A stretch of 64,000 nt of DNA from Microcoleus sp. FACHB-1515. GTDB taxonomy: Bacteria; Cyanobacteriota; Cyanobacteriia; Elainellales; Elainellaceae. The stretch lies in the NCBI RefSeq assembly GCF_014696105.1, contig NZ_JACJPO010000041.1:62001-126000 (forward strand), in the 5' to 3' direction. Positions 6,312 through 17,381 of the stretch are shown here, one piece after another. The notes below the pieces were generated by a model, which was not told the origin of the DNA, did no database searches, and saw only the letters and a program-made list of their open reading frames with translations. The translations under genes were made by a program, and so were the position numbers. How positions within the stretch are numbered: the stretch's first letter is position 1; each line of letters starts with the position of its first letter.

Positions 6312-7799
6312 ATGACCGACTCGAACTCGACTTTTACCCCGCGCAAATCCAGCACGACAGAGCATGTTCTGACGCTGCCGAACCAGCAACTTCGCTATCG
6401 AGCGATCGCCAGTTGGCAAACGCTGTATGAGCGCGAAAAGCCTGCTGCCGAAATGTTTCACGTCGCATATCTGGCCGAGTCGAGCGAGGTGCGTCCCCTG
6501 ACGGTTGTGGTGAATGGCGGCCCCGGTGCGGCTTCAGCCTATCTGCACATGGGCGCGATCGGCCCCCAGCGCATTCAGTTTGGCGAACAAGGTCGCCTGC
6601 CCAAGCCACCCGTGCGCCTGACGGACAATGCGGAAAGCTGGCTGAGCTTCAGCGATTTGGTGTTCATCGATCCGATCGGGACGGGCTTTAGCCGCAGCGT
6701 TCCGACCGAAAAAGCTGCTGAGAAATCCGGCGAGAAACCTGAAGGCGACACGGACGAACCAAAGGAAATTAAATTTTGGGAAGTGGAGCGCGATTTGAAT
6801 TCGATCGGAGAATTCATCCAGCGATTTCTGTCGCAGCACAAGCGCTGGCTGTCTCCGATTTTCATTGCGGGTGAAAGCTACGGCGGCTTTCGCGTCGCTC
6901 GGCTAGCTCGCAAACTGCAACAGGAATTTGGCGTTGGACTGTCCGGCTCAATCTTGATTTCGCCCGCCCTGGAATTTAGCCTGCTGGCAGGCAGCGACTA
7001 CAACGTCACGACTTGGGCGACGCTGTTGCCTTCGCTGGCGGCCTCAGCCGCACATCACGATCGCGCAACTTGGGCAGGCCAACCGGGAGACTTGCAGGCG
7101 CACCTCCAAGCCGCTGAACAGTTCGCCCACAAAACGCTGATTCCCCTGCTGGCGATCGGTGCGGCGTATCCCGAAGCCGATCGCCAGTTAGCTTACGAGC
7201 AGCTAGCGGGCTTAATTGGTTTGCCGTTGAGCGTGGTCAAACAGCAAGGCGGACGCATCAGCTTTGAGACATTTGCCAGAGAACTCTTGCGCGATCGCCA
7301 GCGAATTGTTGGCCTTTACGATGCGTCGATTATCGGAATCGATCCGTTTCCCGATCGACCTTTGTATGAAGGCAGCGATCCGACTTTGGACGGACTCGAT
7401 CGCTTATTTACCGGAGCAATTAACAGTCATCTGCGCGATACGTTGGGCGTGGAAACCGATTTGACCTACCATCTTTTGAATTTTGAAGTGTTCAAAGCCT
7501 GGAAGTTTGATATTAAAGGCGACTTCAAACAAGGCTTCGTTGGAGCGATCGATGATCTGCGCGTCGGCATGACCTTAAATCCCTTCATGCAGGTCTACAT
7601 CACGCACGGATTTTTTGATTTGGTCACACCTTATTTTTCCTCCAACTATTTAGCAAATCTAATGAAGCTCGATCCGGAAATTCGATCGAATCTCACTTTG
7701 AAACATTACCAAGGTGGTCACATGTTTTACGCTTGGGATGCATCGCGTCAAGAATGGTTTGGCGAAATGCAAAAGTTTTATCAAGGGGCGATCACCTAA
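6312..7799 (+). CDS. Peptidase S10 (serine carboxypeptidase-like)
   Basis: 495 residues, alpha/beta-hydrolase fold of the S10 family, which removes C-terminal residues from peptides. The oxyanion-hole motif VVNGGPGAAS is at about 65-75, and the nucleophile elbow GESYGG at 187-192 gives Ser189. The acid is probably Asp436 in THGFFDLVTPY and the base His470 in YQGGHMFY. No clear signal peptide is visible: the N-terminus is MTDSNSTFTPRKSS. Residues 133-155 are a low-complexity Lys/Glu insertion. The next gene starts 35 nt downstream, so they may be cotranscribed. Confidence 0.85.
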   Translation: MTDSNSTFTPRKSSTTEHVLTLPNQQLRYRAIASWQTLYEREKPAAEMFHVAYLAESSEVRPLTVVVNGGPGAASAYLHMGAIGPQRIQFGEQGRLPKPPVRLTDNAESWLSFSDLVFIDPIGTGFSRSVPTEKAAEKSGEKPEGDTDEPKEIKFWEVERDLNSIGEFIQRFLSQHKRWLSPIFIAGESYGGFRVARLARKLQQEFGVGLSGSILISPALEFSLLAGSDYNVTTWATLLPSLAASAAHHDRATWAGQPGDLQAHLQAAEQFAHKTLIPLLAIGAAYPEADRQLAYEQLAGLIGLPLSVVKQQGGRISFETFARELLRDRQRIVGLYDASIIGIDPFPDRPLYEGSDPTLDGLDRLFTGAINSHLRDTLGVETDLTYHLLNFEVFKAWKFDIKGDFKQGFVGAIDDLRVGMTLNPFMQVYITHGFFDLVTPYFSSNYLANLMKLDPEIRSNLTLKHYQGGHMFYAWDASRQEWFGEMQKFYQGAIT

Positions 7800-7834
7800 G
7801 TTTGATTTCGTCATTTCACTGAGGAACAAAAATC

Positions 7835-8755
7835 ATGCGCCTTTTCAATCGATCGCTTTTATTCGCATCGGTTTTGAGTGTATGGACAGTTTGGGATGGC
7901 GGAGCAGTTGCTCAAACGCCCACCGCTTCGGAGCAAGATTTGCAGCGCGAATTGCTTTTGCGAATGGTTGGAACGGATTCTGAAGTTGTGCTGGGGCGGT
8001 TGCCGTCTGATCTGCCGATCGATTTGCCGCTTCCAGATCAGGCTCGGATTATCGGCAGTATTGTTTCGACTGAAAGTCAAGAAAATTTTTCACTCTATGA
8101 TTATCTAATTTATTTAGATGTGCCGCGATCGCCTCAGCAAGCAAGAGATTTTTATCAAGAACAACTCAGCCGCGCTGGATGGAGAGAAGGCGAAGACTTC
8201 ACTAGTCCGGGATTTGTCTCGACGGAAATTGACGGATTTCCTTTCGGCATTCCTTCTACTTTCTGCAAAGACGATCAACTCATTCTTGTCTCGGTTAGAG
8301 CTTTGTCAAATAATCAGGCGGCAACAGTGAGTTTGCAACTGAAAAATACAGCGAATGAACCGTATTCCCCTTGCGATCGCCCCGAAGAAGTGACTATGCG
8401 AGATCCAGCAGCATCCATTCCGCTGCCAGAGTTGACCGCTCCACCCAACACTCAAGTTCGGGCAGCAGGCGGCGGCGGATCAGAGGACAATTGGAGTTCG
8501 ACTGCCAACATCGAAAGTTCGCTGACCGATCAAGCACTGGTGGCTCACTATGTTTCGCAGCTTGAGCAGGCAGGTTGGACGCAGCAAGCTAGCGACACCG
8601 CCGATGCAAGCGTTTGGAGTTTCTTGACGCTGCGAGATGACGAAGGACAGCCCTGGCAAGCATTTCTTTCGATCGCTCCTGCCAACGAACCCAATACCTA
8701 CACTGCCTCAATTATCGTCCTTGCGACCAACCCGACGCGCTCTGCTTTCTTCTAG
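7835..8755 (+). CDS. Exported protein of unknown function with an internal duplication
   Basis: 306 residues with an N-terminal signal peptide (hydrophobic core about 5-22, probable cleavage after AVAQ). Two related modules can be seen: one with SPQQARDFYQEQLSRAGW (about residues 97-115) and one with DQALVAHYVSQLEQAGW (about 232-249), each followed by beta-rich sequence. It is probably periplasmic or lumenal. ATG 7835 is preceded by GAGGAAC. I do not recognise a named family. Confidence 0.7.
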   Translation: MRLFNRSLLFASVLSVWTVWDGGAVAQTPTASEQDLQRELLLRMVGTDSEVVLGRLPSDLPIDLPLPDQARIIGSIVSTESQENFSLYDYLIYLDVPRSPQQARDFYQEQLSRAGWREGEDFTSPGFVSTEIDGFPFGIPSTFCKDDQLILVSVRALSNNQAATVSLQLKNTANEPYSPCDRPEEVTMRDPAASIPLPELTAPPNTQVRAAGGGGSEDNWSSTANIESSLTDQALVAHYVSQLEQAGWTQQASDTADASVWSFLTLRDDEGQPWQAFLSIAPANEPNTYTASIIVLATNPTRSAFF

Positions 8756-9186: not shown

Positions 9187-9801
9187 ATGACGGAATCTGC
9201 GGCGATCGTCATTCCGCAACTGATCGTTGGTTTAGGCAATCCGGGCGCAAAATACGATCGCACTCGCCACAACATCGGCTTTGAGGCGATCGATCGGTTG
9301 GCGCGTACCTGGCAAATTTCGCTGAGCGAAAACCGCAAATTTCAAGGACTGTTTGGCGAAGGACACTTCGGAGCACAAAAAATTCGCCTGCTCAAGCCCA
9401 CAACCTACATGAACCTGTCCGGCCAATCGATCCGCGCCGTCCTCGACTGGTACAAACTCCCACCCGAATCCGTCCTCGTCATCTACGACGACATGGATTT
9501 GCCCGTCGGCAGACTGCGCCTGCGACTCTCCGGCTCAGCAGGCGGACAAAACGGCATGAAATCCGCCATTTCCCACCTCGGAACCCAAAACTTTCCCCGC
9601 CTCCGCATCGGCATCGGCAGCGCCGGACAAAAAGATGCTGTCGGCCACGTCCTCGGCCACTTCTCCCCCACCGAAGCCAAAATCATCACCGAAGTCCTCA
9701 ATCTCACCGTCAGCGCGATCGAACTCAGCCTCAAACAAGGCGTTTCCAAAGCGATGAGTTTGTACAACAATCGATCGATCGAGCTTCCGTCAACAGGTTA
9801 G
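9187..9801 (+). CDS. pth: Peptidyl-tRNA hydrolase
   Basis: 204 residues, Pth1 family, which recycles tRNA from peptidyl-tRNA dropped by stalled ribosomes. The signature VGLGNPGAKYDRTRHNIGF gives Asn18 and catalytic His28. KPTTYMNLSG and YDDMDLPVGRLRLR supply the other active-site Asn and Asp, and GGQNGMKS follows. It sits 2 nt after tatA and is probably cotranscribed with it. Confidence 0.96.
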   Translation: MTESAAIVIPQLIVGLGNPGAKYDRTRHNIGFEAIDRLARTWQISLSENRKFQGLFGEGHFGAQKIRLLKPTTYMNLSGQSIRAVLDWYKLPPESVLVIYDDMDLPVGRLRLRLSGSAGGQNGMKSAISHLGTQNFPRLRIGIGSAGQKDAVGHVLGHFSPTEAKIITEVLNLTVSAIELSLKQGVSKAMSLYNNRSIELPSTG

Positions 9802-9823
9802 GTCAGAAGGCAGGAGGTTCAGA

Positions 9824-9960
9824 AACGAGGGACGCGGCGGGTAAGCAGATGCGTAGCGCCACATTGACACCCACAGACATGCCCTTGCGTAGGGTGCAGG
9901 GAAATGCAATCTCCCTGCCGGGGTTGGAGGTGTGGAGGAGGGGCAGCGCCCCTAGCCTCC
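9824..9960 (-). repeat. Dispersed intergenic repeat, copy 1
   Basis: Read on the minus strand this element runs GGAGGCTAGGGGCGCTGCCC, CTCCTCCACACCTCCAACCCC, then an AGGG/CCCT section, ending near CCGCGTCCCTCG. It aligns along its length with a second copy at 43692-43826 in the opposite window orientation; the best block is a 19-nt identity, CAATGTGGCGCTACGCATC (complement of 9848-9866). An open frame runs through it, but its composition is that of the repeat, so I do not call a gene. It follows pth. Confidence 0.75.
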
Positions 9961-10024
9961 ACTGGCTCGGAAACCAAAAGCCATCAAAAAGGCAAAAAAT
10001 CCGTTTGCCTCCCAAAAGTCCAAC

Positions 10025-11959
10025 CTAGTGACAGCGTTTTTCCTGCTTCGGCAGCGGCGGCACATCCAACGCTGGATTCGCATCAAAAAAGCTGACAGGC
10101 TTGAGCATAAACCCCGAATAAGCCGTCGGCATCACAGGCCAATCCTCCGGACGCGGAATGTGATGATGCCCAAACGTGTACCAAACCACCAGATCGGTGT
10201 TGGCGATCGATCGATCCGCCTGCGTCCACAGAGGCAACCCCTCACCCCCCGGATGCTGATTCGGATAATCCCCCGCCGAATAGCGCTCATTCACAGCATA
10301 CGGCGTCACCCAAAGATGCTTCGTCATAAACCCCGCCCGCTTCAAAATCGGTGAATCCGGATGCGCGAACGGCAAGACATTTTCGCCCGGAACAATCTTG
10401 TAGCCTACTGCCTGACCCAACCGATTCTTCACATTCGGATTCACCACCTTCCAATAGCGAGCCGTCAGCGGATCGATCAGCCGTTGCGCCGCCTGCTCCG
10501 TTTCCAGCAGCGTCGGAACCGCATAAAACGCATTGCCATACGGATTTTCTGCCCCCATTGGTTCCGCTTCCGTATTCACTTCATAAACCGAATTTTCGCA
10601 GCCGTCCAAATCAAAATCCAGCCGCAAACTGAAGAAATGCTGATGATTAATTGCATTCACTTCCGGTGCAACCACCGTGCCGTATTTCGGCTGATCGGCC
10701 AGCGCACCAACCAGCAGAATTCCAGTCAGCTTGACTTCATATTGAATCGTGCCGTCCTGGTAGAAATACCAGAAGAAAGCGTATTCATAATTATCGACAG
10801 TCGCGATGAAGGAAAGGGCGAGACGACGCGATCGCCTCACTTCAACAGCATCCCGCCGCCAATCCGTGTGCTTCCACAACATGCCGAAATCTTCTTCATG
10901 CAGACAAACCGCATTTTTAATCGTAGAAACTTCGCCGCGACTGTTCGTCAAATGCGCGTCAAAATAGCGAATCTCACCCACACAATCGCAGCCATATTCC
11001 AGCGAATTCGCCAGCATTCCCACGCCATGCTCACCCACATCAAACGCATTTTTGCGATAGTGCTGCGGACGCGGATCGCCATACGGCACAACCATTTCAG
11101 CGAGCGAAACGCGATAGAGAATCGATCGCAGCCGTCCTTGATCCTCATAGCCAACCTGATAGAGAACCAGTCCTTCTCGCGGCGTAAACCCAATTCGCAT
11201 TCGCCATTTTTGCCAGCGAATTTCGTGACCATCGATCGAAAAGCTCACTCCTTCCGGCTGCGTAATTTGCAAAGGCTTGATATCCGATCGCAAACTTGGC
11301 TGAAACTGCGGTTCATACTCTCCAGTTTCCGGCGGAACCGGAACAATCCCCAAATCTTCAATTTGCACAACCTCCATTTTGTTGAGGTCAACCACTGGAA
11401 TTAAACCATCGATCGGACGTGCATAAAAATTGCTTTCCGGCGTCGATCGGACATAACACAAACAGCGCGACAATCGCACACCTTCTTCATCTTCGATGCC
11501 AAAATGCCCGATCGCCCAAGGATCAACCACGACCGATTCAAGCGTCAAATTACGCTTGGCAATGGCGGCTTGAAAATCCGGATGCGCCTTTACCGCCGCT
11601 TCGCATTCGGATAGCTCATCCGCCATAATATTCGGCTGAATATCAGGAACATGCTTCCAATCAATGACTGTTTGCTGAGTGAGCGACACGATCGCTTCAA
11701 AGGCTTCCCCGGTTTGATTGTTCAGCAAAATTAAGAAAGCTTGGCGATCGAATTGATCGCCAGATTGAAAGTTCAAAACGAACTCTTTCGGCGGTTCATG
11801 CAGCGTCACACAGGGGAAGCGAAACGTTTCACCCACATTCTGAGCCGTCCGAACGATCGCCACTGCCGCCGCCACTTCTTCGGATCCCAACGGCTCCAGC
11901 GGATGCTTCACTTCGGGCAGGTTCACCAGCTTCGTCGAAAAATTTTGTGTGACTGTCAT
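10025..11959 (-). CDS. Primary amine oxidase (copper/topaquinone)
   Basis: 644 residues, the size of bacterial copper amine oxidases, which oxidise primary amines such as tyramine or phenylethylamine to aldehyde, ammonia and H2O2. The cofactor motif NYEY places the topaquinone-forming Tyr at 391. The expected copper ligands are His439 and His441 (NHQHFF) and His600 in HHHIPRPEDWPVMP. The probable catalytic base is Asp307 in NAFDVGEHG. No signal peptide is seen, so it is probably cytoplasmic, unlike periplasmic E. coli TynA. It stands alone, divergent from the LtrA-family gene. Confidence 0.9.
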   Translation of the reverse strand: MTVTQNFSTKLVNLPEVKHPLEPLGSEEVAAAVAIVRTAQNVGETFRFPCVTLHEPPKEFVLNFQSGDQFDRQAFLILLNNQTGEAFEAIVSLTQQTVIDWKHVPDIQPNIMADELSECEAAVKAHPDFQAAIAKRNLTLESVVVDPWAIGHFGIEDEEGVRLSRCLCYVRSTPESNFYARPIDGLIPVVDLNKMEVVQIEDLGIVPVPPETGEYEPQFQPSLRSDIKPLQITQPEGVSFSIDGHEIRWQKWRMRIGFTPREGLVLYQVGYEDQGRLRSILYRVSLAEMVVPYGDPRPQHYRKNAFDVGEHGVGMLANSLEYGCDCVGEIRYFDAHLTNSRGEVSTIKNAVCLHEEDFGMLWKHTDWRRDAVEVRRSRRLALSFIATVDNYEYAFFWYFYQDGTIQYEVKLTGILLVGALADQPKYGTVVAPEVNAINHQHFFSLRLDFDLDGCENSVYEVNTEAEPMGAENPYGNAFYAVPTLLETEQAAQRLIDPLTARYWKVVNPNVKNRLGQAVGYKIVPGENVLPFAHPDSPILKRAGFMTKHLWVTPYAVNERYSAGDYPNQHPGGEGLPLWTQADRSIANTDLVVWYTFGHHHIPRPEDWPVMPTAYSGFMLKPVSFFDANPALDVPPLPKQEKRCH

Positions 11960-12109: not shown

Positions 12110-12157
12110 CACTAAATCTTGATTGTTATCATTCACTAAATCTTGATTGTTATCATT
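12110..12157. repeat. Perfect 24-bp tandem duplication in the ltrA-like upstream region
   Basis: The unit CACTAAATCTTGATTGTTATCATT occupies 12110-12133 and again 12134-12157 with no mismatch, followed by another CAC. It ends only 18 nt before the start codon of the downstream gene, in the position of an operator or leader duplication. The core TGATTGTTATCATT loosely resembles Fur-family boxes, but the dyad is imperfect. Confidence 0.8.
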
Positions 12158-12175
12158 CACTGCGGAGTCAAGCCT

Positions 12176-13357
12176 ATGACTAGCTGGCTGCAACCGCCTC
12201 GGCTGCGGGTTGGCGAAGAAGCCCCCCGTCATGCGACCTGGCTAGAACTGTTTTATGACTTAGTGTTTGTCGTGGCCGTGTCGCAACTGGCGCACAACCT
12301 CAGCGACGACACGTCGATAGTGGGATTTGTCGGATTTGTTGCGCTATTTCTGCCCGTCTGGTGGACGTGGATTGGCGCAACGTTTTACGCCAATCGCTTC
12401 GACAGCGATGATATCAGCCGTCGTCTGCTGATGGGCATTCAGATGTTGACGATCGCCGCGCTTGCTGTCAACGTGCATCATGGACTCAGCGATACTTCCG
12501 TCGGGTTTGCCCTGTCATATGTGGCGGCTCGCATCGTGCTGATTGGCGAATATCTGCGGGCGGGTCGATCGATTCCCAGTGCTCGCGGCCTGACGACGCA
12601 CTTCGCGATCGGGTTTTCGATCGCCGCCGCTTTGTGGGTGATTTCCATTTTTGTGCCGATCCCAATTCGGTTTGGCCTGTGGGCGATCGCGCTGCTGATT
12701 GATTTTGCCACGCCGATCACCGCAGCCAGATATCAGCGAAATTTGCTGCCGGATTTGGAACATTTGCCGGAGCGATTTGGCCTGTTCACGATCATTGTGC
12801 TGGGCGAAGCGATCATCGCCGTTGTGAATGGCGTTTCAGAAATGGAGTGGGACGGCTGGAGCGAAATTACGGCAGCGTTGGGATTTGTCTGCGCGTTTTG
12901 CTTGTGGTGGATCTACTTTGAAAATGTTGGCAGTGCGGCACTGCGAGCAGCAGGTGAAACCGGACGCCTTCGCGTCTTTCAAGTGTGGCTCTTCGGCCAT
13001 TTGCCGCTTGTCATCGGACTGGCAGCGGCGGGAGTCGGCGTTGAGCATTTGATTTTGGCCGAGTCCAATGCACCGCTGTCCACGCTCGATCGCTGGCTGG
13101 TGTGCGGCTCACTCGCTTTGTGCTTCTTATCGCTAGCGCTGCTGCACCGTACAGGCGTGATTTTCTTTTGCAAATCGAGAACGCGCCATCGAATTGCGGC
13201 GGCGATCGTCCTGCTGGTTCTTGCCATTGCTGCTGTCAACTGGTCGCCAGTCGCGATCGCGCTGACGGTGGCGATCGTCTGCATCAGTCAAGTCGGACTC
13301 GATCTCTATCAAGGTCATCCCGCTGGCTGGCAAAAAGACGAATCACCGCTGGCCTAA
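12176..13357 (+). CDS. Low temperature requirement A (LtrA) family membrane protein
   Basis: 393 residues, about ten hydrophobic segments. The N-terminal stretch HATWLELFYDLVFVVAVSQLAHNL is the LtrA-family hallmark, and the mid-protein ERFGLFTIIVLGEAII motif recurs in the family. The original LtrA came from a Listeria growth-at-low-temperature screen; the biochemical role is unknown, so the gene symbol is left out. Start ATG 12176 is preceded by CGGAG. An in-frame ATG at 12143 lies inside the 24-bp repeat and is unlikely. Confidence 0.82.
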   Translation: MTSWLQPPRLRVGEEAPRHATWLELFYDLVFVVAVSQLAHNLSDDTSIVGFVGFVALFLPVWWTWIGATFYANRFDSDDISRRLLMGIQMLTIAALAVNVHHGLSDTSVGFALSYVAARIVLIGEYLRAGRSIPSARGLTTHFAIGFSIAAALWVISIFVPIPIRFGLWAIALLIDFATPITAARYQRNLLPDLEHLPERFGLFTIIVLGEAIIAVVNGVSEMEWDGWSEITAALGFVCAFCLWWIYFENVGSAALRAAGETGRLRVFQVWLFGHLPLVIGLAAAGVGVEHLILAESNAPLSTLDRWLVCGSLALCFLSLALLHRTGVIFFCKSRTRHRIAAAIVLLVLAIAAVNWSPVAIALTVAIVCISQVGLDLYQGHPAGWQKDESPLA

Positions 13358-13406: not shown

Positions 13407-13452
13407 GTGAGGTTCGATACCGTTTCGGGACGGCACGATCGCACCAATCCGA

Positions 13453-13761
13453 TCAGCGCGAACTCACATCGTCCGACTGAAGCGGAATGCGCTTGGTCAA
13501 CATCCGCATGAACTCACCGGGATTTGGCGTCGGGATCAACGGTGTCCATTCGGCAGAGTGCGCGATGCTGGCGCAATGCAGCAGATGCACAAATCGATCC
13601 ACGACGGGACGCGACCCGACTGCCAACACGCGCAGCACTTCCGGGTCATTCACGGGCGGCAAAAACACGGGGCGCGGCGGTTCGGGTTCGATCGGCAAGA
13701 ACGGTTCCGGTAGCTCAAACGGTTCGATCGCGTCGTAGTCTCTGTAGTTTTCGTAAGTCAT
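13453..13761 (-). CDS. Small Pro/Glu-rich hypothetical protein
   Basis: 102 residues starting MTYENYRDYDAIEPFELPEP, with a proline/acidic-rich N-terminal third and a more ordered C-terminal part (VNDPEVLRVLAVGSRPVVDRFVHLLHCASI). It looks like a conserved small cyanobacterial protein but I cannot name a family. The open frame extends another 26 codons upstream; I chose ATG 13761 because the extension is basic and unlike the rest, with a weak AGAGAC ribosome site upstream. It converges with the LtrA-family gene. Confidence 0.55.
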   Translation of the reverse strand: MTYENYRDYDAIEPFELPEPFLPIEPEPPRPVFLPPVNDPEVLRVLAVGSRPVVDRFVHLLHCASIAHSAEWTPLIPTPNPGEFMRMLTKRIPLQSDDVSSR

Positions 13762-13839
13762 TCGATCGTCTCTACTAATGGGCACGTGAGAAACGCAGCG
13801 GCGGATCGCACCCATCCGCTGCACCCTGCCTCCATGCAC

Positions 13840-14121
13840 AACGAAGCCGCCTCACTGCGTACAGCAAGACGGCTAGCAGATACAATCGAAGCTAGCCTTC
13901 AAGCTGGCGAGATCAGTTTTGAGGGTTAGTTCCTTGGGTGTGTTGGTAGCACTCCCTTGGAACGCTTCGGCGCATCGGAAAAAGCGATAACTGAGGCTAC
14001 AACGTCTGGAGGATTTTTGCAAGAGGGGGCGATCGGGAACGGAGCAGCTTTGCTGGCCGCGCAGCTTGCAAAACGGTATCGAACTGGGTCAAAGACAATT
14101 AAGAAAAGACGAACATTTCGA
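13840..14121. other. Intergenic stretch with no supported gene
   Basis: Between the small Pro-rich gene and the tandem repeats there is no ORF with a good start and coding character. A 69-codon plus-strand frame (13957-14166, beginning at TTG) has a low-complexity Ala/Gly run (GAIGNGAALLAAQLAKRY). It could be a gene remnant, but nothing supports translation. Confidence 0.4.
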
Positions 14122-14245
14122 CCTAATCACCTCAAGCAGCATATTGTGCGGAAAGGTTCGGCCTAAACGCCAAACACGGATGTTATGCAGAATGATTCGG
14201 CCTAATCACCCGCTACGGGATGTTGTGTGGAAGCTTTCCACCTAA
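14122..14245 (+). repeat. Three degenerate ~40-bp tandem repeats beginning CCTAA
   Basis: Units begin CCTAAT at 14122, CCTAAA at 14162 and CCTAAT at 14201, with a fourth partial CCTAAT at 14241; periods are 40, 39 and 40. Each unit contains a TTRTGYRGAA-like block and most end in TTCGG; the last contains GTGGAAGCTTTCCAC, a small hairpin. They directly precede the AT-rich unknown gene. Confidence 0.75.
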
Positions 14246-14297
14246 TAATTGTTAGCTAGAAACCCAGGCTTTAGTTCTTCAACTTTCTTTATTAAAC

Positions 14298-15188
14298 ATG
14301 AAACCTGAAATAATAATCTCTGAAGATGAGCAAAAGTTACTTGAAGAATCACCTGAGGAACTTCTTGAAGATATTCGCAATGTTGTTAATACTTACACAA
14401 AAAACCGCCAGGATCGACTTCCCAAAATTACATCACTTGTTCAGCGTGAGTTAAAACTTCTTGACTTTGCATTTGCAAATGTCTTGACACTCTGGATAAT
14501 CTTCCATTCAAGGCAAAATGATGATATTCCTATGCTCTGGTTCAATGACAATAAGTTGACATCACTATGCTTTACAAGCTTGCTCCAAAATATAGCTGAT
14601 TCAATCAGTATTATTCGGAATTTAAGTGGTGCTGGGAATCATTCACGTTTGGTATTTAGATATTTGGTAGAGACGTTTGATCTCACTATTGCTTGTGCTG
14701 GTGATGAAGCTACTCTTATGGATTTTATAAAGTCATTTGATGCTAAAGAAGACACCTTGAAACACTGGCGGAAAAACCTTTCACCTGGACGAATACGAAA
14801 GACTCTTAGCAATATTGAGATGAACATGATCGGTGCTGAGCCTGAAATCGTCGCGCATCTACATGAGATGAGAAAAGATACTTATTCATGGCTGTCAAGG
14901 GCTGGACATGTCGATTTCATCGCGTACATCGGGGATTCAGTTACAGATAGCTACGTGGAGATGGCGACTGCAACCCTTCGCTCTTTGCTTCAATATTTAG
15001 CTTGTTCTCAAACATTTTTTGCTACTCTTCTAATAGGCAAACATCGGTGGTTTTCTGAGCTAGAAAACGATAATTACACTCCTGATGATGTGGAACGACA
15101 GCTTCTTGAGAAAAAATGTTTGATAAGAATAAAGCGTTTTGCAGATGACTACACCATATACAGACGTGAACAAGAAGACGTATTTTAA
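14298..15188 (+). CDS. AT-rich gene of unknown function, probably acquired
   Basis: 296 residues, soluble, largely helical, with an acidic start (SEDEQKLLEESPEELLEDI) and a middle section (LLQNIADSISIIRNLSGAG, then LVFRYLVETFDL) reminiscent of DUF5677-type proteins of unknown function; that resemblance is weak. Base composition and codon use (many AAA, TTT, ATA) differ sharply from the GC-rich neighbours. It is bracketed by the CCTAA tandem repeats upstream and an attC-like inverted repeat 35 nt downstream, an arrangement like a mobile gene cassette. No clear Shine-Dalgarno is seen. Confidence 0.65.
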   Translation: MKPEIIISEDEQKLLEESPEELLEDIRNVVNTYTKNRQDRLPKITSLVQRELKLLDFAFANVLTLWIIFHSRQNDDIPMLWFNDNKLTSLCFTSLLQNIADSISIIRNLSGAGNHSRLVFRYLVETFDLTIACAGDEATLMDFIKSFDAKEDTLKHWRKNLSPGRIRKTLSNIEMNMIGAEPEIVAHLHEMRKDTYSWLSRAGHVDFIAYIGDSVTDSYVEMATATLRSLLQYLACSQTFFATLLIGKHRWFSELENDNYTPDDVERQLLEKKCLIRIKRFADDYTIYRREQEDVF

Positions 15189-15222
15189 GAGCGTATTGAA
15201 GGGCAATCGGCGTGCCTCTCAG

Positions 15223-15305
15223 CTAACAACGCTGTTGCAGCGGATTGTTGGGTTCTGCTTGTAGGGGAGCAAGGTTGATCTGTAACCGTTGAACAGCAAC
15301 GTTAG
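15223..15305 (+). repeat. attC-like imperfect inverted repeat downstream of the AT-rich gene
   Basis: The 5' arm CTAACAACGCTGTTGCAGCGG (15223-15243) matches the complement of the 3' arm CCGTTGAACAGCAACGTTAG (15286-15305) with small bulges, around a 42-nt centre. The ends CTAAC and GTTAGG and the bulged arms resemble integron attC sites. The R'' consensus is not perfectly met, so I keep attC-like as an inference. Confidence 0.55.
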
Positions 15306-15403
15306 GTTTCCATTGATGAATGCCGAAATTTGCTGAGATATTCTTTTTTGTCATGTTTGATTAAAGTTCAGTTCCGCTACTGTGGCTGAAACTGTCCAAA
15401 CAA

Positions 15404-15440
15404 CAAAAATCGCTCGACCATCGTAAAGACGATCGAGCGA
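15404..15440 (-). terminator. Rho-independent terminator of sir
   Basis: On the minus strand TCGCTCG-ATCGT pairs with ACGAT-(GGT)-CGAGCGA around CTTT and is followed by TTTTTG. It lies about 25 nt beyond the sir stop codon. Confidence 0.8.
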
Positions 15441-15464: not shown

Positions 15465-17381
15465 CTACTCGATCGTATTCAGATAAGCTTCGATCGCTTT
15501 AGACGAAATTTCGCTCATGTGAACGCCTTTTTCTGTGGCGTGTTTCTTGAGGCGATCGTACACCTCATCGCGAATGCCGACCCGATATTTGCCGCGCACT
15601 TTGGCGGGTGTGGGCTGATAGGCAGCGGCATAGCGACGCAGGGCATCAAAGCCGACGCGATCGCAAAAATCACCGAAGCTTTCCGGCTCGACGCGCTCTT
15701 GCTTTTCCTGCTTGAAGTAGACAAACAGCGGCTCTAGGGCAGCTTCAAGATTGTCGATGTGCAGATTGTCGAGATACGGCTGAGCGAGGCGGGTTTGGTG
15801 CGGGTCGGCTCCCAGCCAGATCTGGTAGCTGCTGGGCGACTGACCGACAAAGCCAAGTTCTGCAAGATACGGACGAGCGCATCCGTTCGGGCATCCGGTC
15901 ATGCGGGTGACGAAATGTTCTTGCTCCAGTCCGACCTTGTCGAGCAGGGCGCGGATGCGATCGAGAATTCCCGGCATCGCCCGCTCCGATTCGGTGACGG
16001 CAAGGCCGCAGGTCGGCAGGGCGGGGCAGGCCATCGAATAGCGGACGAGGGGATCGATCGCCGTTTCCATTTTGATGCCGCAGCGATCGAGAATCGCCTG
16101 AATGTCCGGCTGAAGTTCCGGATCGATATCGTAGAAAACCAGGTTGTGATTGGCAGTCAGGCGAATCGGCAGCGCATATTCTTCTTCGATTTCGCGCAGA
16201 GCGGTTTTCAGCTTCAGCGTTTCTGTATCGTGGATGCGACCGTTTTCGATCGAAATGCCCAGAAACAGTTGACCATCGCCTTGATCGTGCCAGCCCAAGA
16301 AATCTTTGTACTTCCAGTCGGGTAAGGGATGGAACGGCTGAAACGATTTGCCCCAAAAGCTTTCGACAACGCTGCGGAATTTTTCGACGCCCCAATCGTT
16401 GATCAGATATTTCATGCGGGCGTGGCGGCGGTTGACGCGATCGCCATAGTCGCGCTGCGTGGCAACGATCGCCTTCATCACGTCGTAGATGTCATCTTTT
16501 TCGACGTAGCCAATTTCGTCGGCAATTCGCGCAAAGGTTTCTTCTTTGTTGTGCGTCCGTCCCAAGCCGCCGCCTGCGTAGACGTTGAAGCCTTGCAGTT
16601 CGCCTTGGTCGTTGGTGATCACGACGAGCGAGACATCTTGCGAGAACAGATCGATCGAGTTGTCGCCCGGAACCGTGATGGCGCACTTGAATTTGCGCGG
16701 CATGTAGTACGTGCCGTAGATCGGCTCTTCGCCTTCGTGGAAGACTGTGCCGTTGCCGTTGCGACTCAGCGCGGCTTGAATTTCAGGATTGGGTTCTCCG
16801 GTAATTGCCCGTTCGCCGTCCAGCCAAATTTCGTAGTAGGCTCCGGTGCGAGGCATCAACAGATCCGCGATGTTGTCCGCATATTCACGGGCGATCACGT
16901 ATTCGGGCTTGTCTTTGTACGGTGCGGGCGGAGCCATGACGTTGCGGTTGAGGTCGCCACATGCGCCCAAAGTCGAACCCATGTTGCGAACGATCGTGGC
17001 GATCGCTGCCTTCAGATTCTTCTTCAAAATGCCGTGAATTTGAAAGCCCTGACGAGTCGTGACGCGCAAGGTGTGATTGCCAAACGAATCGCTCATCTCG
17101 TCCATCGCCAGATAAAGCTGCGGCGGAATGAAGCCGCCTGCGTTGCGCGTCCGCAGCATGAACTGGTAGTCTTTCTCCTGCCCCTTGATGCGGTTGTCGC
17201 GGTTGTCTTGCTGGTAGGAGCCGTGAAACTTGAGGATCTGAATGCCTTCTTCGGTGAAGTGCGTGGTGTCTTGCAGAATTTCGGTAGCGACAGGTTCGCG
17301 CAAGGCGTGACTACGCTCTTTGATGCCTTCCATTTTGGAAGACTTTTGCACGGGCGAAACGGGAGTGGGAGTGTTGACCAT
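15465..17381 (-). CDS. sir: Ferredoxin-sulfite reductase
   Basis: 638 residues. It reduces sulfite to sulfide with electrons from ferredoxin, using siroheme and a [4Fe-4S] cluster. The four cluster Cys are C452 and C458 in [12 protein letters not shown] and C497 and C501 in [11 protein letters not shown]. The N-terminal region ([30 protein letters not shown]) is typical of plant and cyanobacterial Sir rather than nitrite reductase. The catalytic core ends near residue 585. The remaining ~45 residues ([19 protein letters not shown], then a second helix) resemble a ribbon-helix-helix DNA-binding unit. It stands alone with its own terminator. Confidence 0.93.

Follow-up and report, generated by a model that had tools for sequence, protein, structure and literature searches.

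Integrons are usually described as one attI site beside the integrase gene intI, followed by one array of gene cassettes of which the first are best expressed. The occurrence of integrons and attC sites in Cyanobacteria is already known, as far as the available parts of two studies go (PMC8618304, PMC8352920), and attI is called poorly described outside class 1 integrons in the accessible portion of a third (PMC9024848). According to the same portion, a sedentary chromosomal integron typically has one attI near its integrase (PMC9024848). The system presented here resembles such integrons in its attI, attC and cassette and in the divergent intI of relatives, but it comprises many attI sites, nearly all of them without intI. 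At the locus studied, no intI stands beside attI as it does in a complete integron. CALINs are similar as well, since they contain attC without intI. In contrast, a full attI precedes the cassette here, and only one attC was found in the 64-kb window, i.e., in the whole stretch of DNA that was analyzed, while the default setting of IntegronFinder 2 calls a CALIN from two attCs or more (PMC9024848, available portion).

Among systems with additional recombination sites, a Shewanella prophage with two attIs likewise has a second attI heading an intI-less array (PMC9892861, in the sections available). However, that is one extra attI in one prophage, whereas up to about 14 chromosomal docks were found here, and the docks occur class-wide. 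Cassettes of the delta-attI type and attG sites are comparable because IntI likewise uses sites other than the attI beside intI (PMC12901181, partial text). In the systems covered by that text, either fragments of attI take the place of attC or a divergent genomic site is targeted, while here full multi-unit attIs lie upstream of cassettes. A report of many attI sites per genome was not found in the open-licence PMC literature, insofar as its texts were available, the two-attI Shewanella prophage being the nearest case. We read the window locus, with a probability of roughly 80%, as a cassette whose single gene is AT-rich and which occupies an attI without an intI of its own, one of about 14 attI places of the host genome, with docks served in trans.

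The cassette gene and its attC site

The window corresponds to positions 62001-126000 of contig C36 in a host genome of 5.79 Mb and 96 contigs. Judging by its ferredoxin-type sulphite reductase and its many GCGATCGC motifs, we take the host to be a cyanobacterium. The features of the locus are listed in Table 1.

Table 1. Features at the cassette locus (positions refer to the window)
Feature	Position	Strand	Remarks
LtrA-family gene	12143-13357		left neighbour of the cassette locus
Platform DNA upstream of attI	13436-14116		common to C13, C32 and C42 of the host genome
Small divergent gene where intI would stand	13453-13761	minus	paralogues at 4 attI loci and elsewhere
attI (three palindromic units and terminal half unit)	14117-14255	+	exchange point between 14251 and 14252
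attI palindromic units	14117-14153, 14157-14192, 14196-14232	+	37, 36 and 37 bp
Gene cassette, G/TT to G/TT	14252-15301	+	bounds from attI core and attC R' box
Cassette gene, AT-rich orphan	14298-15188	+	296 aa, GC 0.383
attC	15221-15307	+	model R1, 70.5 bits, E 9.1e-16 genome-wide
Terminator-like hairpin of sulphite reductase gene	15410-15440	minus	
Sulphite reductase gene (sir)	15465-17381	minus	right neighbour of the cassette locus

An earlier note on this DNA had described the gene as far richer in A+T than its neighbours. This was confirmed: the GC content of 0.383 stands against 0.562 and 0.557 in the neighbouring genes and 0.536 in the window, and among 1263 windows of the same size only one is as AT-rich, which overlaps the gene itself. 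The bounds of the cassette follow from the G/TT in the attI core and the G/TT in the attC R' box (the slash marks the point of exchange) and are backed by junctions at other loci. Nothing in Rfam matched the region. The cassette protein gave a single chance-like match below the cut-off in Pfam, no match in NCBIfam and PADLOC, and a match of chance level only among PDB sequences. No relatives turned up in scans of genomes and viral contigs or in phages, and one distant relative, without annotation, is encoded on a Mesorhizobium plasmid (34% over 161 aa). The single-sequence fold reached a mean pLDDT of 38.6, too low to be of use, and sigma-70 promoter matches at the locus were no commoner than chance. 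When ten other cassette proteins of the host genome were scanned against Pfam, the matches included a D12 DNA methyltransferase, two PIN domains and GNAT, SMI1/KNR4, CHAT, DUF4365 and HAD domains; one protein had no Pfam match and one an HNH match just below the cut-off. From this company one might guess at a role of the window gene in defence or stress. In the C32 cassette (L064 4936-5967), a methyltransferase-like ORF is oriented against the cassette direction.

Downstream of the gene, the imperfect inverted repeat that the earlier note had pointed out is real and was delimited as given in Table 1. The consensus boxes of attC are GTTRRRY for R' and RYYYAAC for its partner; the R' box of the window site, GTTAGGT, fits this consensus, and its R'' box, AGCTAAC, fits save one base. 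A covariance model (R1) was trained on 22 attC sites near intact intI genes of relatives, the window site being excluded. Integron integrases in relatives were found with the NCBIfam model TIGR02249, which 124 of 388 same-class genomes matched above its cut-off. In the training alignment 87.2% of the cells are paired, 16 of the 22 pairs changed on both sides, and on four of five measures none of 500 shuffles showed covariation as high. Under R1 the window site matches over its full length with 70.5 bits (E 3.6e-17 over 230 kb), has 21 of the 22 modelled pairs in standard form and carries extra bases on the L'' arm, as do the attC sites of relatives. Throughout the host genome R1 found 19 attCs on 14 contigs, including the window site (the other 18 at E < 1e-4).

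Simpler approaches gave less. A first strict scan for the R'' motif missed the window attC, and a tolerant version, weak by itself, found it. The score of 9.8 in a simple box scan is insufficient alone, since 2 of 50 shuffled windows reach it, and the bottom strand, folded freely as DNA, did not reach significance (z -1.62), since 12 of 200 shuffles did as well. The weight of the identification rests on R1, on the basis of which we consider the site a genuine attC and the attC-like cassette reading of the earlier note well founded. The array next to intI in genome G159 contains a site (L044:16178-16264) that, judged by eye, closely resembles the window attC along its length.

The gene was absent from all 97 other genomes searched, and 12 relatives showed no attC around sir, with flanks of up to 1.5 kb covered. 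In the sister species G001, homology past sir ends at window position 15401, just outside the cassette unit, and gives way to other sequence. The unit as a whole thus varies at this position. The earlier note had set a mobile insert against the same gene and flanks in all relatives, and the outcome favours the former. It had also proposed to look for an empty site in sister strains: sir of G001 has no adjoining attC, and the empty site itself was searched there and not found.

The upstream repeats and their counterparts in relatives

The three units of about 40 bp noticed earlier upstream of the gene are likewise real. They follow each other with a period of 39-40 bp and are completed by a half unit, which ends in CCTAATAATTGTTAG and has the core CCTAATAATTG/TTAG. 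The exchange point within this core was placed by comparison with junctions at other docks, as G/TTA junctions were seen at homologous docks rather than at the window dock itself. With this leader as BLAST query, 7 more places turned up in the host genome. A profile built from five leaders was then run against relatives, where its matches lie between the attC array and an intact intI of divergent orientation. At L039, for example, intI (9740-10675, minus strand) is followed by the leader (10871-10922) and by attCs from 11515 onward. The same order was found at L051, L042, L050, L049 and L037, while L030 has intI and leader; at E <= 0.1 the profile did not match L034, L035, L036, L038, L040, L041, L043-L047, L052 and L053. 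Furthermore, a model of the attI end (R2) matches beside the intI of genomes G009, G010 and G030. In the host genome, contig C53 shows attC, leader and then a 103-position intI fragment with a stop, in the order of the relatives. The place between intI and the first cassette, where attI is expected, is thus taken by the leader in relatives and at C53, while the window locus has no intI.

A reading of the upstream units as decayed attCs was given up when such units turned up beside intI. In the partial texts available, the attI end of the Shewanella system, CTAATAAAATGTT (PMC9892861), and the end of attI2, AATAAAATGTTRRRY (PMC12901181), look like the end of the window attI. Judged by position and sequence in relatives, the upstream repeats are attI, and the window locus is, on the same grounds, a one-gene cassette within an intI-less attI platform. 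The earlier note had thought of a lone cassette of the CALIN kind. A cassette and attC without integrase are indeed present, but the CALIN label is incomplete for a locus with a full attI upstream and one attC: since the upstream repeats are a full attI, we see an integron platform that lacks intI, and not a stray cluster of attCs. The other suggestion of that note, a repeat-guided insertion, was a good guess, as the repeats are the integration site.

Exchange points and integrase remnants

At other docks of the same kind, alignments of junctions break exactly at G/TTA, both in attI and in attC. L124 of the sister species and L141 of the host represent one intI-less dock, whose 87.2% identity runs for 961 bp and stops at the attI end, where different inserts begin. 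The L141 insert begins with GTTATGCC, and the same sequence follows an attC in L125 of G001 with an identical break. Conversely, one cassette (94.8% over 1182 bp) lies behind two clearly different attIs in these two species (L123 and L097), its homology beginning at TTGTTAGACAGC. In the closed genome G009, a segment beginning with GTTAGCCCTCAGCGCC follows attI at L132, L129 and L130, which comprise two attI types, and also follows two different attCs, at L133 and L130. These junctions are, as far as alignments can tell, the kind of joints made by IntI recombination, and we take them to show that docks now without intI were used in the past. Compared with each other, they suggest that docks swapped genes at one exact point.

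Some further observations were made at these loci. L123 (3163-4391) and L097 (123-1354) have the same cassette gene (about 95%) with two different attC bodies, homology fading just past the R'' box; a cassette gene may here have changed its attC. In L130 the GTTAGCCCTCAGCGCC segment (7599-8053) is a short unit, about 0.3 kb long, that precedes the first attC. L127 (9641-12663) and L096 (4536-1430) share the right flank past attC between two species, while the left flank and the attI type differ, suggesting a rearrangement between docks.

As the earlier note had observed, no integrase is visible: the 64-kb window contains none, and the host genome has intI fragments only. An intact intI was not found in the data of the host genome or of its sister species G001 (assembly 82% complete). 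Among the closed genomes of relatives, G009 has a single match to the integron integrase model, and tblastn places intI at one of five attI loci read there, while the DNA behind intI is common to all five. In G003, closed as well, two loci (L139 7573-7904 and L140 2377-2118) carry an identical, internally deleted intI, in which residues 1-33 are joined to 236 onward; the two copies share 93.6% identity over 977 bp. More matches to the end part of intI occur elsewhere in that genome. G206, another closed genome, has an intact intI with an attI beside it, and 5' stubs of intI at a distance of about 0.2 kb from further attIs. In the host genome, C36, C32 and C13 have 742-781 bp upstream of attI in common (76-83% identity), the platform DNA of C42 aligns with this block, and a stretch of 608 bp behind intI is common to C53 and C63, the latter without an intI piece. 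Given this shared DNA behind or upstream of attI together with the intI remnants, the platforms thus probably multiplied by duplication and lost intI.

The four attI loci of the same type as the window locus have a small divergent gene next to attI. Its start was set at an ATG by choice, the longest ORF extending to 13839, and its family has 13 matches in the host genome including the window copy, most of them away from attI. By eye, a small ORF of similar appearance was seen behind what is left of intI in C53, G001 and G003. Insertion of the whole platform in the manner of a defined transposon was also considered, but no terminal inverted repeat was seen by eye at the left edge of the C36/C32/C13/C42 block.

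Could the docks be decayed integrons only? In this scenario, complete integrons, cassettes included, were first duplicated or taken up; intI then decayed, and the leftover attIs were never loaded in trans. The intI fragments, the internally deleted copies of G003 and the 5' stubs beside attIs all fit to it, as do the upstream DNA common among docks and the host without an intact intI; moreover, the exchanges may predate each loss of intI. However, decay alone would have to account for an orthologous intI-less dock (L124/L141) with different inserts in two species of one genus and a break at the attI core, and for the same G009 segment after different attIs and attCs. We therefore consider it unlikely, albeit not far-fetched. 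Most likely, the many dispersed attI docks belong to one integron and depend on a single integrase that serves them in trans; in the host, that integrase is dead or absent.

Distribution of the docks and implications

Model R2 was trained on 10 sites of the host and 6 of relatives; since host sites were included, their scores are partly given by construction. With R2, about 14 attI places were found in the host genome (best match per place, E <= 0.005). Thirteen have at least 1 kb of downstream sequence, and in 11 of them a same-strand attC lies no more than 3 kb away. The two testable attIs with no attC downstream are on C31 and, as the second one, on C61. The 7 leader places obtained by BLAST only are less biased: one runs off its contig, and five of the other six have a same-strand attC within 3 kb, against about 0.5% expected by chance for each place. 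In addition, 20 attI loci were fetched regardless of attC, six from G001 and the others from G009, G024 (leaving out its intI locus), G003 and one host place. At least 1 kb of downstream sequence was available for 19 of them. L129, L132, L136 and L141 were without attC, and one further locus has its attC at 6.8 kb. In the opposite direction, 6 of the 19 host attCs have no recognised attI in the fetched surroundings (three on C76, one each on C72, C40 and C16), so some cassettes sit elsewhere. One small contig of G001 (L142 1590-3318) carries three consecutive attCs, with no attI match in the stretch read.

Beyond the host, R2 matched 153 of 291 same-class genomes at E <= 1e-4, with at least two matches in 116 and at least four in 69, counts that are somewhat high because palindromes can match on both strands; an attC beside the match was looked for at the host loci and the fetched loci of relatives. 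Within the host family, 35 of 36 genomes have attI matches and all 36 have attC. Such abundance, together with the palindromic and tandem nature of the units, might point to a general intergenic repeat family that lies near cassettes and intI by chance. Yet the association with attC is strand-specific: among the 19 fetched loci, attC follows within 5 kb on the same strand in 14 and on the opposite strand in only one. The units also keep a constant place between intI and cassettes, and their terminal core coincides with the exchange point, which makes a chance neighbourhood very improbable. Least credible of all is that IntI put the cassette into an unspecific, attG-like GTT site with the repeats being incidental: such insertions are known (PMC12901181, PMC12444791, in their available parts) and the host attCs without recognised attI would suit them, but the window target, rather than being unlike attI and attC, is a multi-unit element that the docks share in conserved form and that relatives carry next to intact intI.

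Returning to the docks served in trans, IntI from one intact locus would recombine the folded single strand of attC with a double-stranded attI, and several dispersed docks would be served by that IntI, the palindromic units being putative extra IntI-binding sites. Docks would arise by duplication of attI-intI segments and loss of intI, and would multiply with the deleted intI like internally deleted transposons. Because the host intI is present as fragments only, the window cassette can probably no longer be moved, unless IntI comes in from elsewhere. Likewise, any activity in trans in the host would belong to the past, as neither the host assembly nor that of the sister species holds an intact intI. 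For the Cyanobacteria as a whole, we cautiously lean towards a distributed integron, i.e., one integrase, many chromosomal attI docks and non-autonomous attI platforms with deleted intI. Each dock would have flanking DNA of its own and hold a single cassette or a few of them; with many docks, many cassettes would therefore be in first position at once.

The present data provide an attI model for a bacterial class. With its single intI and five or more attI loci, the closed genome G009 allows capture in trans to be tested directly. If true, the proposed system would explain integrase-less cassettes that current software labels as CALINs or, if they have a single attC, drops by default, and a chromosome with many docks would store and express its cassettes in a different way.
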